This document shows, piece by piece, positions 8,897 to 40,676 of a DNA stretch of 64,000 nucleotides. The first letter of the stretch is position 1. Each line of letters starts with the position of its first letter. A program made the translations under genes and the position numbers. The notes under the pieces were generated by a model. It saw only the letters and a list, made by a program, of their open reading frames with translations. It was not told the origin of the DNA and did no database searches. The DNA comes from Altererythrobacter sp. TH136 (lineage in GTDB: Bacteria > Pseudomonadota > Alphaproteobacteria > Sphingomonadales > Sphingomonadaceae): assembly GCF_007065885.1 (NCBI RefSeq), contig NZ_CP041409.1:1535501-1599500 (forward strand). Direction: 5' to 3'.

Positions 8897-9166
8897 TTAC
8901 TCGCCGGCTTCCTCGACGAAGTTCGCGGCGTTGGCGGCGGTCGCGCTCAGGCGCACCTTATCGCCTTCGACCTCGGCGACGAGGCCCAGCGGGATCGTAT
9001 GGTGATGGCCGCTGTGCGTGCCACCTTGCGCACCTTCGATCTCGGCCGCTGAATCGCGCTTCGTCAGCTTGATGTGATCACCTTCAACTCGGTCGACGGT
9101 GCCGACGTGGACGCCATCGGCGCCGATGACTTCCATGTGTTCGCGAATGTTGCTGTGGTCGGTCAT
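8897..9166 (-). CDS. DUF2171 domain protein
   Basis: An 89-residue protein starting MTDHSNIREHMEVIGADG at the ATG at 9166, which follows AAGGAACATGCT. The pattern HMEVIGADGVHVGTVDRVEGDHIKLT is the DUF2171/PRC-barrel-like beta fold; a TIPLGLVAEVEGDKVRLS repeat completes the barrel. The family is common in Sphingomonads, often near stress genes. It is 10 nt downstream of a hydrophilic protein gene on the same strand, and the pair sits behind an EcfG-type promoter. Function unknown; a general stress role is inferred from context. Confidence 0.8.
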   Translation of the reverse strand: MTDHSNIREHMEVIGADGVHVGTVDRVEGDHIKLTKRDSAAEIEGAQGGTHSGHHHTIPLGLVAEVEGDKVRLSATAANAANFVEEAGE

Positions 9167-9719: not shown

Positions 9720-9744
9720 AACGTCGCCCTCACTGGTGCGTTCC
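9720..9744 (-). promoter_or_regulatory. EcfG (general stress sigma factor) promoter
   Basis: Read on the minus strand the site is GGAAC, a 16-nt spacer, then CGTT: an exact match to the EcfG consensus of alphaproteobacterial general stress response genes. It points toward the hydrophilic protein and DUF2171 genes. Transcription would begin near 9712, giving a leader of about 230 nt. Confidence 0.75.
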
Positions 9745-9855
9745 AGTGGATGGTTATCCCCGCATCAATCTTCAGATTACCTGTCGAATCGGCGGCCAAA
9801 ATGACTATGTTAACCGCTCACGCCTGATCACCGCAGAAGACCCCGGAGCCACAAC

Positions 9856-34694: not shown

Positions 34695-35609
34695 CTAGCC
34701 GGCCGCTGGTGCCTCACCCGTCGCCAGCGAGTCCGCGATTGCCCGGCTGACGGGTTTGACCGGGATGCGCAGGTAACTCACCCCGTTGTCTTCGGCAGGC
34801 GGCAGGCGTCCCGCGCGGATATTGACCTGCACCGACGGAAGCAGGAGGCGCGGCACGCTGAGCGTCGCATCGCGCGCCTCGCGCATGGCGACGAATTCGT
34901 CCTCGCTCACCGCCTCGCCAACATGCACCGAACGGGCGCGCTGATCGGCGACGGTGGTCTCCCAGGCGTATTGGTCGCGTCCGGGCGCCTTGTAGTCGTG
35001 ACACAGGAACAGGCGGGTGTCGCCCGGCAGGTCGAGCAGCCGGCGGATCGAGCGGTATAGCTGGCGCGCATCCCCGCCGGGGAAATCTGCTCGCGCGGTG
35101 CCGTAGTCTGGCATGAACAGGGTATCGCCGACGAACACCGCATCGCCCATCCGGTATGCGACATCGGCAGGCGTGTGGCCGGGCACGTGCAGCACCTCCA
35201 CCTCCACGCCGCCGATCGCGAACCGTTCGCCGTCGCGGAACAAGCGGTCGAAATCCGATCCATCGGTCTTGAGGTCATCCGCCTGGAACATCGGCCGGAA
35301 GATCTTCTTCACGTCCTTGATGTGTTCGCCGATCCCGATCGCGGCGCCCGTGCGGGCCTTGATATGCGGTGCGGCCGACAGGTGATCGGCATGGGCGTGG
35401 GTTTCCAGCACCCAGTCGATCGCCAGCCCGCCTTCGCTGGCGGCGGCGAGGATCGCGTCGGCCGAACGCACGTCGGCCTCTCCGCTCGCCAGGTCGAAAT
35501 CGAGCACGGGATCGATCACCGCGGCCCGCCCCGTCGCGGGGTCGGACACGAGATAGCTTACCGTGTTGGTGGGTTCATCGAAAAATGCGGCGATCCGGGG
35601 TTTGGTCAT
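34695..35609 (-). CDS. MBL-fold persulfide dioxygenase-type hydrolase
   Basis: A 304-residue metallo-beta-lactamase fold protein. Metal motif THAHADHL (HxHxDH), further ligands in VPGHTPADV, VGDTLFMPDYG and LCHDY. The start AAFFDEPTNTVSYLVSDP and length match the ETHE1/Blh family, which oxidises glutathione persulfide to sulfite. It lies divergently next to a BigR/SqrR-type repressor, with rhodanese and TauE/SafE genes beyond: the standard persulfide/sulfide detoxification neighbourhood. ATG 35609 is chosen; an open frame extends to 35633. Confidence 0.9.
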   Translation of the reverse strand: MTKPRIAAFFDEPTNTVSYLVSDPATGRAAVIDPVLDFDLASGEADVRSADAILAAASEGGLAIDWVLETHAHADHLSAAPHIKARTGAAIGIGEHIKDVKKIFRPMFQADDLKTDGSDFDRLFRDGERFAIGGVEVEVLHVPGHTPADVAYRMGDAVFVGDTLFMPDYGTARADFPGGDARQLYRSIRRLLDLPGDTRLFLCHDYKAPGRDQYAWETTVADQRARSVHVGEAVSEDEFVAMREARDATLSVPRLLLPSVQVNIRAGRLPPAEDNGVSYLRIPVKPVSRAIADSLATGEAPAAG

Positions 35610-35635
35610 GCAGGCCTCCATTGCCCTTGACATAT

Positions 35636-35651
35636 ATAAGCATTTGCTTAT
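35636..35651. promoter_or_regulatory. Likely operator of the BigR/SqrR-type repressor
   Basis: ATAAGC-ATTT-GCTTAT is a perfect 6-bp inverted repeat in an A/T-rich block in the 55-nt divergent region between the MBL gene and the repressor gene. A TTGACA at 35627-35632 overlaps its left end, so binding would block the repressor promoter and probably the divergent one. AT-rich palindromes of this kind are typical BigR operators. Confidence 0.6.
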
Positions 35652-35664
35652 TTAGTAAGTCCTA

Positions 35665-35994
35665 ATGGAAAAGCTCGTTCATCCCCCTCTCGATCTCGTC
35701 AGCTTCGAACGTCACGCGGCCGGAGTTGCCGATCTGTTGCGCGCGCTGGGAAACCGGCGGCGGCTGATGATCATGTGCAAGCTTGCCGAACACGGTGAGA
35801 TGACTGTCGGCGCGCTGGCCGGAGAGGTCGGCCTGTCGCAGTCGGCGCTGTCGCAGCACCTGGCCCGCCTTCGCGACGAGGGACTGGTGGCGTTCCGGCG
35901 CGAGGCGCAGGCGGCGTGGTACCGCATAGCCGATCCGCGCTGCGAGGACCTGATGGCGACGCTGTACCGCCTGTACTGCTCAGACAAGGATTGA
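35665..35994 (+). CDS. ArsR-family persulfide-sensing repressor (BigR/SqrR type)
   Basis: A 109-residue winged-helix repressor. The DNA helix is VGLSQSALSQHLARLRDEGLV. Two cysteines sit at the positions used by BigR/SqrR to sense persulfide: one in RRLMIMCKLAE (about residue 38) and one in LYRLYCSDKD near the C-terminus (about residue 105). The genes around it (MBL dioxygenase, rhodanese, TauE/SafE) are the usual BigR regulon. An operator-like palindrome lies 14 nt upstream of the start. Confidence 0.88.
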   Translation: MEKLVHPPLDLVSFERHAAGVADLLRALGNRRRLMIMCKLAEHGEMTVGALAGEVGLSQSALSQHLARLRDEGLVAFRREAQAAWYRIADPRCEDLMATLYRLYCSDKD

Positions 35995-35998
35995 TGCC

Positions 35999-36519
35999 AT
36001 GACCTGCCAGACTTTGACCCCGGCCCAGGCGCGCGATGCGGTGGCACGCGGCGCCCGGCTGATCGACATCCGCAGCGCCGACGAATTCGCCCGGGTTCGC
36101 CTGCCGGGCGCCGAGAACCGCCCGCTCGACCAGCTCACGACCGTCACTCACGATGGACCGGTGGTGTTCCATTGCCGGTCGGGCATGCGCACGACGGCCA
36201 ATAGCGACCGGCTGGCGGCCGCTGCACCGGGCGAGGCGTTTATAGTGGAAGGCGGTCTCGATGGCTGGCGCAAGGCCGGGCTTCCGGTCGAGGAGACCGC
36301 GGGCGCGCCGCTGGAGATCATGCGCCAGGTGCAGATCACCGCGGGCTTGCTGGTGCTGGCCGGCGTGATCCTCGGCCTCATCATCGCCCCGGCATGGTTG
36401 GCCCTGTAGGCCTTCGTCGGCGCGGGGCTGACCTTCGCGGGACTGACCGGCTGGTGCGGCATGGCAAACCTGCTCGCCATGATGCCGTGGAACCGGCGCT
36501 CTCCGGTCAAAGCCTGATC
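35999..36519 (+). pseudogene. Rhodanese-DUF2892 protein gene with internal TAG
   Basis: The reading frame codes for an N-terminal rhodanese domain (active-site Cys in VVFHCRSGMRTT) followed by a DUF2892 membrane unit starting MRQVQITAGLLVLAGVILG. It is stopped by TAG at 36407-36409, giving a 136-residue product. Directly after the TAG, in the same frame, the missing half continues: [18 protein letters not shown]...MPWNRR to a TGA at 36517-36519. Relatives have Ser (TCG) at the TAG position, so one base change explains it. The rhodanese domain and first helix can still be made; the second helix needs readthrough. Confidence 0.85.
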
Positions 36520-36521
36520 CG

Positions 36522-37301
36522 ATGGACCCGGCGACCATCGGGCTCGCGCTGCTCAGCGGCGCGCTGATCGGGCTGGTCCTGGCGCTGGTCGGCGGCGGCG
36601 GATCGATCCTCGCGGTGCCGTTGCTGATCCACGTGGTCGGGGTGGACAGCCCTCATGCGGCGATCGGCACCGCCGCGGTCGCGGTCGCCCTGAATGCCGC
36701 GGCGGGGCTTGCCGGTCACGCACGCGCGGCCAACGTCAAGTGGCCCTGCGCGGTCGTGTTCGCGGGTGCGGGCATGATCGGCGCGGCGCTCGGCGCGGAA
36801 CTCGGCAAGGCGATCGACGGCGATGCGCTGCTGGCGACGTTCGGCGCGCTGATGATCGTGGTCGGCGGGTTGATGCTGCGCGGCCGCAAGGGCGGCGCGA
36901 ACCCCGACGTGCGGCTGTCAGCTGCCAGCGCCCGCCACCTCATGCCCCGGCTGGCAGGTTACGGCCTGGCGGTGGGATTGCTGGCGGGCTTTTTCGGCAT
37001 CGGCGGCGGGTTCCTCATCGTCCCGGGCCTGATCGCGGCGACCGCGATGCCCATCGGGATCGCGGTCGGCACCTCGTTGGTGGTCGTCACCGCGCTCGAC
37101 GCGACGACCGCCACATCGTATGCCCTGTCGGGTTATGTCGACTGGATACTGGTCGCCTGGCTGGTCGCCGGGGGGATCGCGGGCACCATCGCCGGGCGTA
37201 TCGCGGGCAAGCGCCTGGCAGCCCGCAAGAACCTCCTTGATCGAGGCTTCGCCGCGGTGGTCATCGCAGTGGGCGCGTTCGTCACGGCCGGGGCGCTCTA
37301 G
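36522..37301 (+). CDS. Sulfite exporter TauE/SafE family protein
   Basis: A 259-residue TSUP-family membrane protein with about eight hydrophobic segments. The inner repeats LVGGGGSILAVPLLIHVVG and FGIGGGFLIVPGLIAATAM are the two family signatures. In this neighbourhood it most likely exports sulfite produced by the persulfide dioxygenase/rhodanese pair. It begins two bases after the rhodanese frame ends, so it is in the same operon, and its end overlaps the convergent YqaA-type gene by four bases. Confidence 0.92.
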   Translation: MDPATIGLALLSGALIGLVLALVGGGGSILAVPLLIHVVGVDSPHAAIGTAAVAVALNAAAGLAGHARAANVKWPCAVVFAGAGMIGAALGAELGKAIDGDALLATFGALMIVVGGLMLRGRKGGANPDVRLSAASARHLMPRLAGYGLAVGLLAGFFGIGGGFLIVPGLIAATAMPIGIAVGTSLVVVTALDATTATSYALSGYVDWILVAWLVAGGIAGTIAGRIAGKRLAARKNLLDRGFAAVVIAVGAFVTAGAL

Positions 37302-37936
37302 CGGTTCGGGACCGTGACTGCCCCCGAACACTTGTCGGCCTTCGCCTCGCCCTCGCCCCCCAGCATCGTCACCGCCAGGAACCCGGCGATGACCAGCGCC
37401 ACGAACGCGGCGGTCACCGCGCCCAGGTACTTGTCGATGAAGCGCTTGATCGGCGCACCGAAGAACCGGAACAGCACCCCCACGATCATGAAGCTGATCG
37501 CGCGGCTGACCAGGCTGGCGGCCAGGAAAAGCGCCAGGTGCATGCCCATGAACCCGGCGGTGATCGTCAGCAGCTTGAACGGGATCGGCGTGGCGCCCTT
37601 GGCGACGAACAGCCAGAACCCGTATTCGTTGAGGTAGCAGACCGCGACCGGGAAGCTTTCCGTGAGGCCCAGCCAGTCGAGGATCTGCGTGCCCAGCGTG
37701 TCGTAAAGTCCCCAGCCGATCGCATAACCGAGCAGGCCGCCCAGCACCGAGGCGATCGTCGCCACCCCGGCAAAGCGCAGCGCCTTTTTGGGCTCGGCGA
37801 GGCACATCAGCCCCAGCAGCGGGTGCGGCGGGATCGGAAAGAAGCTCGCCTCCACGAACGCGAACATCGCCAGCCACCATACCGCGTGGCGATGCGCGGC
37901 CTTTTCCATCGTCCAGTTATACAGGCTGCGCAGCAT
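37298..37936 (-). CDS. YqaA family (VTT/SNARE-associated) membrane protein
   Basis: A 212-residue membrane protein of the DedA/VTT superfamily, YqaA branch. Recognisable are FVEASFFPIPPHPLLGLM near residue 28 and NEYGFWLFVAKGATPIPFKLLTITAGFMGM in the middle. It has about five hydrophobic segments. DedA-type proteins scramble or flip undecaprenyl phosphate or other lipids; the YqaA branch is uncharacterised. Convergent with the TauE/SafE gene. Confidence 0.9.
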   Translation of the reverse strand: MLRSLYNWTMEKAAHRHAVWWLAMFAFVEASFFPIPPHPLLGLMCLAEPKKALRFAGVATIASVLGGLLGYAIGWGLYDTLGTQILDWLGLTESFPVAVCYLNEYGFWLFVAKGATPIPFKLLTITAGFMGMHLALFLAASLVSRAISFMIVGVLFRFFGAPIKRFIDKYLGAVTAAFVALVIAGFLAVTMLGGEGEAKADKCSGAVTVPNR

Positions 37937-38156: not shown

Positions 38157-38663
38157 ATGGCAACCGACAGCACCGGCAGACGGCTCTACAATGCGCCCAA
38201 GAACTGGCCGGACATTTTCCTCAACCATCTGGCGGAAACGTCGAACATCAGGGCGTCGGCCGATGCCGCCAACGTCAGCCAGACGATGGTGTACCAGAAG
38301 CGCCGGGCCGATCCGGAGTTCGCCCAGCGGTGGTACGCCGCGCTCGCCGAAGGGTACGACACGCTGGAGATGGAACTGCTCGAGCGGCTGCGCACCGGCC
38401 GCCTTGAGGACGAGCTGCCCGACGGGAGCAAGCGCAGGTTCGACATCGGCACCGCGTTCAAGTGCATTTCCGCTCACCGCGACACCGTCCTGCGCGAAAA
38501 GGCGCGCCGTTCGCTGTCGGACGAGGTCACCACGATGGCCTCGATCAACGCCAAGATCGACAAGATGCGCGCGCGGCAGGAACACGCAATCGAACTCGCC
38601 GCCAAGCGCGCCGGGATTGTCGTTCCCCAGCCTGAAGACGTGCAGGCCGGCGATGGAGCGTAA
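38157..38663 (+). CDS. Small terminase-like protein, GTA remnant
   Basis: A 168-residue helix-turn-helix protein (LAETSNIRASADAANVSQTMVYQKRRADPEFAQRW), followed by LERLRTGRLED and coiled helices. Proteins of this sort sit directly before the large terminase in gene transfer agent clusters and act as the small packaging subunit. Here it is followed, with overlapping codons, by a terminase fragment fused to DUF2793. It has no internal stop and may still be expressed. The open frame extends to 38028, but the ATG at 38157 marks the conserved start. Confidence 0.75.
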   Translation: MATDSTGRRLYNAPKNWPDIFLNHLAETSNIRASADAANVSQTMVYQKRRADPEFAQRWYAALAEGYDTLEMELLERLRTGRLEDELPDGSKRRFDIGTAFKCISAHRDTVLREKARRSLSDEVTTMASINAKIDKMRARQEHAIELAAKRAGIVVPQPEDVQAGDGA

Positions 38664-39327
38664 CGCCCGCGGCAGCCGCGGCACCTGGTTCCGGCGGGCG
38701 GACGATGCCGGCCTGCAGGACCGGCTGGTGCTCGACAAGGAACTGAAGCCGCACGAGCTGGCCGCCCTGGGCAGCTGGCACTGGGAGATCTGGGCGCGCG
38801 ACGAACAACTGCCGCCGCAGGGGCCGTGGCGGGTGTGGCTGATCTGCGCCGGGCGCGGGTTCGGCAAGACCCGCGCGGGCGCCGAATGGGTCCGCAACCT
38901 GGCCCGCCACGATCCCGCCGCGCGGATCGCGCTGGTCGGGGCGTCGCTGGGCGAAGTGCGCAGCGTGATGGTGGAAGGCGAAAGCGGCATCCTCGCCGCC
39001 TTGGGGGAAGCCGCAGCCCCGCCGTCGGACCCCGTGGAGGAGGGGGATTGCTGGCTCGTCGGCGCGGCGCCACAGGGGGCGTTTGCAGGACGCGCGGGAA
39101 GCATCGCCTGTTTTGCCGGCGGCGCATGGGTGTTTGCAGCGCCGCGCGATGGCATGCGCGCCTTCGACCGATCCACCGGGCAGCTGTTGCTGTTCCGAGA
39201 CGCCTAGCGTCGCGAGCCCATCCCGGATCTGCCTTCGGGCGGAGCGACTGTCGATGTCGAGGCGCGCCTGGCGATCGGGGCGATTGTTGCCTTGTTGCAA
39301 CGGTCCGCAATCCTTCCGTCGAACTGA
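38653..39327 (+). pseudogene. Fused GTA remnant: terminase N-terminus joined to DUF2793 C-terminus
   Basis: The frame from ATG 38653 starts like a large terminase: LKPHELAALGSWHWEIWARDEQL and Walker A CAGRGFGKTRAGAEWVRN (residues 65-82). After about residue 114 it turns into the C-terminal half of DUF2793: EEGDCWLVGAAPQGAFAGRAG and DRSTGQLLLFRD. A TAG at 39205-39207 stops it at residue 184, but the DUF2793 end continues in frame (GGATVDVEARLAIGAIVALL) to TGA 39325-39327. An internal deletion of a GTA cluster explains this; the terminase nuclease part and all structural genes are gone. Confidence 0.85.
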
Positions 39328-39521: not shown

Positions 39522-40676
39522 ATGCGGAAACTCGTCATTGGCTTGGCTCTGGCATCTACTGCCATTGCGTCGCCTTCACTCGCGCGTGACGGTGCGTGGT
39601 ACGTCGAACTCGACGGCGGTCCCATGATCGTCGAAGACATCGATCTCGACATCGGTGCTGCGCCGAACGCCGTTCGCGTCGACCACCACAAGGGTTACGA
39701 CTTCGGCGGCATCGTCGGTTACGATTTCGGCTTCGTGCGGCTTGAGGCGGAAGGCAGCTACCGTGCGGCCGACATTTCGACTCTGACCGTCGGCAGCACT
39801 CCGATCGCAGCCGGACCGGGCCGCACGTTCACCAACACCTCCATCGGTTCGGACGGTGATTCGAGCGCGCTGAGCTTCATGGTCAATGCCTTGGCCGATT
39901 TCGGTCCGGACGATGGCCTTCAGGGCTTCGTCGGCGGCGGTGTCGGCGTTGCTCGCACCAAGTTCGACGGTGTCTCGGGCCAGCGCAGCGGCGCCGGCTT
40001 CCTCGACGATTCCGACAGCGGCTTCGCCTGGCAGCTTCTCGCTGGCGTTCGCGCTCCGCTGACCGAAACCATCGACGTTGGTCTGAAGTATCGCTTCTTC
40101 AACACCGCTGAACTCGACATGGTCGACAGCGCTGGCCGTGACGTAAGCGGCAAGTGGCGTTCGCACTCGCTGCTCGGCACCATCGGGTTCAACTTCGGCG
40201 GCGCTCCTGCCCCGATGCAGACCTGCTGGGATGGCACGCAGCTGCCGATGGATGCAACGTGCCCGGCTCGCCCGGCGCCCGTGACGCCTCCTCCGCCGCC
40301 GCCGCCGGCCGTGGTTACGCCGGTCTGCAACAAGGGCCCGTACATCGTGTTCTTCGAGTGGGACCGTTCGGACATCACTCCGGAAGCCGCGACCATCCTG
40401 AACAACGCTGCTTCGGCTTACGCCAACTGCGGTTCGGCTTCGGTCATGCTTGCCGGTCACGCGGACCGTTCGGGTTCGGCCCAGTACAACGTTGGCCTTT
40501 CGCAGCGTCGTGCCGCGACTGTCCGGTCGTATCTCTCGGGTCGTGGCGTTCCCGACACGCGGATCGCTACCGAAGCGTTCGGCGAGTCGCAGCCGCGCGT
40601 TCCCACCGCGGACGGCGTGCGCGAGCTTCAGAACCGTCGGGTGGAAGTCACCTACGGTCCGGGTTCGGGCATGTAA
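39522..40676 (+). CDS. OmpA-family outer membrane protein
   Basis: A 384-residue outer-membrane protein: signal peptide (cleavage after SLA), an eight-stranded beta-barrel of about 230 residues with alternating polar/apolar strands, a Pro-rich hinge (APVTPPPPPPPAVV), then the peptidoglycan-binding OmpA C domain (VMLAGHADRSGSAQYNVGLSQRRA, LQNRRVEV). The codon use (high GTT, GCT, TCG) suggests strong expression. ATG 39522 follows AAGGGGAATTACATA. A strong terminator follows. Confidence 0.93.
   Translation: MRKLVIGLALASTAIASPSLARDGAWYVELDGGPMIVEDIDLDIGAAPNAVRVDHHKGYDFGGIVGYDFGFVRLEAEGSYRAADISTLTVGSTPIAAGPGRTFTNTSIGSDGDSSALSFMVNALADFGPDDGLQGFVGGGVGVARTKFDGVSGQRSGAGFLDDSDSGFAWQLLAGVRAPLTETIDVGLKYRFFNTAELDMVDSAGRDVSGKWRSHSLLGTIGFNFGGAPAPMQTCWDGTQLPMDATCPARPAPVTPPPPPPPAVVTPVCNKGPYIVFFEWDRSDITPEAATILNNAASAYANCGSASVMLAGHADRSGSAQYNVGLSQRRAATVRSYLSGRGVPDTRIATEAFGESQPRVPTADGVRELQNRRVEVTYGPGSGM

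Follow-up and report, generated by a model that had tools for sequence, protein, structure and literature searches.

Why gene transfer agents (GTAs) persist when the cells that produce them die is a standing puzzle, and one expects to meet cheaters that produce none. The locus described here raises a related question: how is a whole GTA gene cluster lost from a chromosome, and does the loss happen once or many times? The locus lies in the window, i.e., the entire stretch of 64,000 nucleotides that was analyzed, from the complete 2.6 Mb genome of Altererythrobacter sp. TH136. This organism falls in the genus Tsuneonella, which also includes T. rigui, T. flava and T. suprasediminis.

Positions 38653-39207 of the window (forward strand) form one reading frame of 184 codons (184 aa), which begins as the start of a large terminase (TerL) and passes into the middle of DUF2793. 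A Pfam search of both halves, as a sequence-only reading of this DNA had proposed, found DUF2793 on residues 119-183 (E 8.7e-18, 64.4 bits, cut-off 27) and Terminase_6N on residues 64-125 (E 4.7e-4, 20.3 bits, slightly below the cut-off of 22). Residues 5-139 are 69% identical to the 457-codon TerL frame of a congener (G002). NCBIfam gave no match for the fused protein or for the small terminase (TerS). The sequence is TerL-like up to GILAA and DUF2793-like thereafter. Comparison with relatives therefore puts the boundary at about 39000/39001, within the interval 38992-39009 where the switch had been suspected. The frame departs from TerL at about residue 116, before the WCDE motif that we take to be Walker B, and contains no complete TerL (Walker A, Walker B and nuclease). 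The TerS gene, whose end overlaps the start of the fused frame, is intact as had been supposed and matches PHROG 4044, terminase small subunit (E 5.4e-13). With both halves homologous to GTA genes and with YqaA and OmpA borders as in intact relatives, the locus is a GTA remnant (Table 1). The names of the two border genes are ones that we presume from their sequences.

Table 1. Features of the GTA remnant and its borders in the window
Feature	Position	Strand	Basis
YqaA-like membrane protein gene (presumed name), left border of GTA locus	37298..37936	-	neighbour in relatives
TerS, GTA small terminase-like, 168 aa, open	38157..38663	+	PHROG 4044; relatives match upstream of TerL
TerL start, residues 1-116, with Walker A, cut before WCDE motif	38653..39000	+	frame and relatives
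DUF2793 part in frame with TerL, internal stop 39205-39207	39001..39207	+	Pfam DUF2793
Rest of DUF2793 frame past the internal stop, with final stop	39208..39327	+	similar to relatives' C terminus
OmpA-like protein gene (presumed name), right border of GTA locus	39522..40676	+	similar distance after DUF2793 in relatives

Past the internal stop, the same frame stays open to about 39324 and resembles the C terminus of relatives. Because this stop lies inside the DUF2793 part, the fused frame looks like a remnant in decay and not like a preserved fusion. Among the matches listed, no frame outside the window holds both halves, and those that reach the DUF2793 half along one frame (in G172, G145 and G132) are ordinary TerL frames. 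The occurrence of the whole fusion in many GTA-less genomes, which would speak against a deletion remnant, was accordingly not seen. Beside the locus, window positions 34695-37301 hold a set of genes that looks like sulfide detoxification, presumably encoding a metallo-beta-lactamase-fold protein, an ArsR-type regulator, a rhodanese and a TauE-like permease (names from translations alone).

Intact relatives show what is missing. Their clusters have the order TerS, TerL, portal, capsid, tail genes, gp15-like and DUF2793, flanked by YqaA and OmpA; most of these names are assigned by analogy with RcGTA. Among the 11 Tsuneonella genomes examined, TerL and DUF2793 are 12.8-13.9 kb apart in four (G001-G004) and 5.6 kb apart in G006, a partial cluster. 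Nearly everything between the two genes is gone in six, the window's among them. YqaA is a neighbour in nine of the ten other Tsuneonella genomes (it is on a separate contig in G010, and in G003 it falls outside the stretch examined). Congeners G001-G004 have the cluster at the same place before OmpA, which confirms that the window holds a GTA deletion remnant. The loss of the GTA from this lineage was likewise upheld, since a GTA capsid query had no match in the window's complete genome. The same query matched all seven intact genomes (one being the query's own), but not the partial cluster of G006.

We also considered whether the GTA body had moved elsewhere in deleted genomes, and rejected this; the rejection reaches as far as the single capsid query. 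The query was negative in 17 of 17 genomes carrying the common junction described below, as well as in G177, G180 and G272. It found nothing in a further 11 of 11 deleted genomes, a set without a positive control. When cluster DNA of G232 was used as a query against G180, only the two cluster ends were found. Alphaproteobacterial GTA-like clusters do occur as viral contigs in IMG/VR (at least 592 portal matches). These contigs were examined as a possible source of excised GTA bodies: in 80 loci (L327-L406) of the at least 592 matches, none had the DUF2793 motif and no contig started at the TerL cut, which says little either way.

Searches of other genomes revealed a deletion of the same kind with almost invariant ends. 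In 27 genomes besides the window's, the same locus (YqaA, GTA, OmpA) lacks about 13 kb: the break in TerL lies directly ahead of its WCDE motif, and that in DUF2793 directly ahead of its GQxQKE motif. Between the TerL motif LRGP[QE]H and GQxQKE there are 31 nt in 24 distinct loci and 32 nt in three (G269, G113 and L317). No other spacing below 1,000 nt occurred among the loci examined, on both strands. The exact 31 nt were found in Tsuneonella (G005, G007, G008, G009 and G010) and in a genome of another genus (G011). Named carriers include Novosphingobium arvoryzae, N. aquimarinum, Croceibacterium salegens and Aurantiacibacter rhizosphaerae, and the junction is present in two single-contig genomes (G175 and G326), in named isolates and in MAGs. 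The crossover falls within about 3 nt, as some products retain only GC of a TerL alanine codon and others GC[C/G]TG. The linker CTCGCN is common in several genera, and G204 has kept the same 13-nt linker though its TerL start is gone.

The loci came from 52 genomes of the family, chosen because their TerL frames were short or because they gave one match only, from individual genomic regions and from 80 named loci. The 52 were drawn from a survey of 298 family genomes. Open TerL frame length proved unreliable as a sign of truncation, as G177 (369 codons) and the L272 genome (638 codons) carry the junction, so that the survey gives only a lower bound for carriers, among the matches listed. Two further rearrangements were noted. 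In G237 (L125, about 9076-9123), a capsid gene is fused in frame to DUF2793 with a cut within about 2 nt of the usual DUF2793 cut, and in G142 (L211, about 9742-9748 of the locus), TerL runs 3-4 nt beyond the common cut before it meets a tail gene. They hint that both junction ends may be prone to breakage; two cases prove little, and we rejected them as proof of hot spots.

The window itself is joined elsewhere. It lacks both motifs and hence the 31/32-nt junction, as does one other genome, G117, in which TerL residue 148 or so is joined to DUF2793 residue 39 or so. In a MutS tree, the window genome lies beside T. rigui G010, a carrier of the exact junction. In the TerL-start tree, it does not lie beside G010, with modest support and 180 nt of the window compared, and a deletion shared by the two is thus not supported. 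The junction in the window could have formed in two steps, with the common deletion first and another after it, or in one separate step, and an ordinary random deletion is its simplest reading. Of the single in-frame deletion that had been proposed, the deletion stands, and the single step is not shown. In the T. rigui G010 assembly, a break falls between TerS and TerL (contigs C26 and C15; L082 and L081), not at the junction, and the contig ends there seem to adjoin.

It had been suggested that the retained TerS may serve another use. This found no support. Pairs of the window's TerS with those of G010 and G002 gave dN/dS of 0.54 and 0.37, the highest among 12 pairs, the rest being 0.03-0.27. 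These values may reflect relaxation and count as evidence against a new role, though weak evidence, since no clear sister relationship holds between the GTA loci that were compared.

Was the common junction formed once or repeatedly? A MutS tree with 50 genomes, of which 20 are deleted, 22 intact and 8 other, requires 15 changes between deleted and intact states. When the rows are restricted to deleted and intact genomes, MutS (42 rows) requires 16 changes, the TerL start (39 rows) 13 and DUF2793 (39 rows) 14, and a single clade of deleted rows was rejected on each of the three trees. Genomes with a junction split over contigs (G180 and G272), G113 and G269 (32 nt) were counted as deleted. The TerL tree was built without G009, G012, G025, G031, G259, G295, G105, G199, G204, G160 and G232, in which a motif was not found. 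The DUF2793 tree was built without G187, G175, G000 and G307 for the same reason, and G113 was dropped from it. Close pairs of a deleted and an intact genome include G005/G001, G231/G109, G011/G317 and G120/G187. The TerL start of G269 (L146, Croceibacterium salegens) groups with those of Tsuneonella G006, G007 and G010 and of G104, not with its own genus, which suggests that the GTA locus may have been transferred between genera.

The DNA next to the junction bears on the same question. The closest pair is the deleted G005 with the intact G001. Its five parts are 89-97% identical, and beside the junction 68 of 70 bases are equal on the TerL side and 70 of 70 on the DUF2793 side. In the stretch 0-24 nt from the junction, divergence between a deleted genome and an intact congener is 0.144 on the TerL side and 0.205 on the DUF2793 side, compared with 0.120 and 0.213 between intact congeners and 0.174 and 0.246 between deleted genomes of different genera. 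By this measure, the flanking DNA follows each deleted genome's own intact congener. The two bases of the linker that derive from DUF2793 equal those of the intact relative in 5 of 14 deleted genomes (AC in G005; TC in G231, G177 and G119; TT in G180). One of the two agrees in six (G011, G174, G010, G008, G009 and G326) and neither in three (G196, G259 and G007), the intact relatives compared for these nine being more distant than those for the five full matches.

Remnants with the common junction are mostly well preserved. The TerL start is free of stops in 18 of 18 deleted genomes of a set that excludes G009 and G259, and 14 pairs that include a deleted genome give it a dN/dS of 0.02-0.41, against 0.05-0.40 for nine other pairs. 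Of 19 deleted genomes (G175 being outside this set), 18 have a full-length DUF2793. In 9 of 27 loci, however, its frame has no ATG, GTG or TTG start, so that DUF2793 may not be translated there. This state of the remnants would be best explained by young deletions; the low dN/dS could alternatively mean that the remnants still work. Older stages are seen in G009, which has lost TerS together with most of its TerL start, in G204, in G113 (stops), in the one-base shifts of G269, G113 and L317, and in the window.

Some assemblies suggest that deleted and intact forms occur together. In G180, a MAG with SPAdes-style contig names, and in G272, the junction is split over two contigs. The first contigs end 8 and 11 nt past the first motif, and the second begin 5 and 3 nt before the DUF2793 motif. 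If both forms were present, an assembler would halt on either side where they cease to agree, and both genomes fit this pattern. No GTA body was found in either assembly, and for this reason coexistence there is something that we infer. Contig ends lie within 3 kb upstream of the DUF2793 match in 7 of 80 named loci. In L258 and L303, the contig end comes within 6 nt of the junction. L303 and G180 are one record, and L258 shows an assembly break at the junction on one side, with no TerL start found in its genome.

Chance deletion should not repeatedly remove DNA with the same two ends, nearly always identical to the base. We give somewhat better than even chances to the explanation that the GTA body of about 13 kb has been lost repeatedly, in situ, by a site-directed event, and that the window is a decayed stage of such a remnant; our confidence is set no higher because linker agreement is full in only 5 of the 14 deleted genomes. 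On this explanation, the exact deletion would arise again and again through a site-directed, homology-independent cut-and-join. Deleted forms would be young and would coexist with producers, and they would later decay through further deletions and stops. The window would have reached its decayed stage by its own separate deletion or by a second one on top of the common junction. We propose more tentatively, as a possibility that we ourselves hold to be doubtful, that sphingomonad GTAs carry, or are the target of, a site-directed, homology-free deletion switch that takes the same segment of about 13 kb out of the chromosome and so repeatedly turns producers into non-producers in natural populations.

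The main rival is an ancient origin: the exact deletion would have occurred on one or a few occasions and would since have been maintained across species as a producer/non-producer polymorphism, with recombination within species making the flanks local. A junction that is base-exact in many genera, a linker common to several of them and contig ends suggesting both forms in one sample would all follow, and producer/cheater dynamics have been proposed for GTAs in the accessible part of PMC10883770. This history would nevertheless require every lineage to have exchanged its flanks on either side, up to about 24 nt from the junction, and in the five closest comparisons the linker matches the local DUF2793 codon. 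We consider this history unlikely, though to be taken seriously. If a fragment carrying the deletion instead moved between species, by recombination at conserved bases beside the junction, the good conservation of these TerL and DUF2793 bases across intact genomes would have assisted it, and deletions are easier to import than 13 kb. Against this, near-junction divergence from the intact congener is no greater than that between intact congeners, and G005 shares all 70 DUF2793-side bases with its intact sister; this explanation seems quite improbable.

Slightly less so, but still improbable, is selection to retain a small module, made up of TerS, the TerL start and DUF2793, once the GTA body had gone. 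The open TerL starts, the full-length DUF2793 and dN/dS values like those of intact genomes agree with a functional remnant. The DUF2793 frames that lack a start codon and the decay in G009, G204, G113 and the window do not, and such selection leaves the base-identical cut unexplained. Finally, the breakpoints of other losses at this locus vary, and the junction genomes include several MAGs, as one would expect of ordinary independent deletions or of assembly artefacts. With 24 of 27 spacings equal and three off by one base, and with the junction present in single-contig genomes and named isolates besides MAGs, we regard this as very improbable for the common junction.

As for how a site-directed loss might work, the breakpoints give few clues. 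Hairpins were rejected: 44-nt folds at the breakpoints in 20 intact genomes were no stabler than windows from the same locus (mean rank 0.56 and 0.61). Microhomology at the crossover was absent in the closest pair, G005/G001, and no clear case was seen elsewhere. An identical core at both ends, as expected of a site-specific recombination element, was not found when 24 TerL and 24 DUF2793 sites were aligned (the DUF2793 site of G237 being itself rearranged); the two ends have only TGnnTG in register, in many genomes. No recombination site was found, and no cutting enzyme came to light.

The lasting interest of this locus lies in the nearly base-exact recurrence of GTA loss. An exact deletion that has seemingly recurred a dozen times or more offers a simple marker for non-producers, one that can be counted in strain collections and metagenomes. 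De novo formation of the junction would point to a process that cleaves GTA loci at fixed bases, and a single old allele would mark an extremely old producer/non-producer polymorphism.

Comparison with known systems places these observations. DUF2793 is a GTA tail fibre family, and pseudogenisation and complete loss of GTAs have occurred in multiple alphaproteobacterial lineages, according to the accessible part of PMC10883770. The window is one such loss, of the kind seen in pseudogenised or lost clusters of possible cheater lineages. The common junction differs from these in recurring at the same base, which was not seen in the portions of the literature covered by our search (including PMC10883770, PMC9836097, PMC9765227, PMC13236601 and PMC6821227, with subscription papers mostly outside it), and no description of the junction was found there. 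The Conserved prophage of Sphingomonadales (Viswanathan et al. 2017) is predicted to be an RcGTA-like element, as given in the accessible part of PMC6821227, and resembles the clusters of this locus in that respect. Relatives of the window have at this locus the gene order expected of the RcGTA-like head-tail clusters of Alphaproteobacteria, including DUF2793, whereas the window retains only TerS, the TerL start and part of DUF2793. Programmed deletions by site-specific recombinases excise elements in sporulating or heterocyst-forming bacteria. The two ends of the GTA junction differ from those of such elements in having no shared core sequence, but the loss of the GTA is likewise an exact and repeatable removal of a chromosomal segment.
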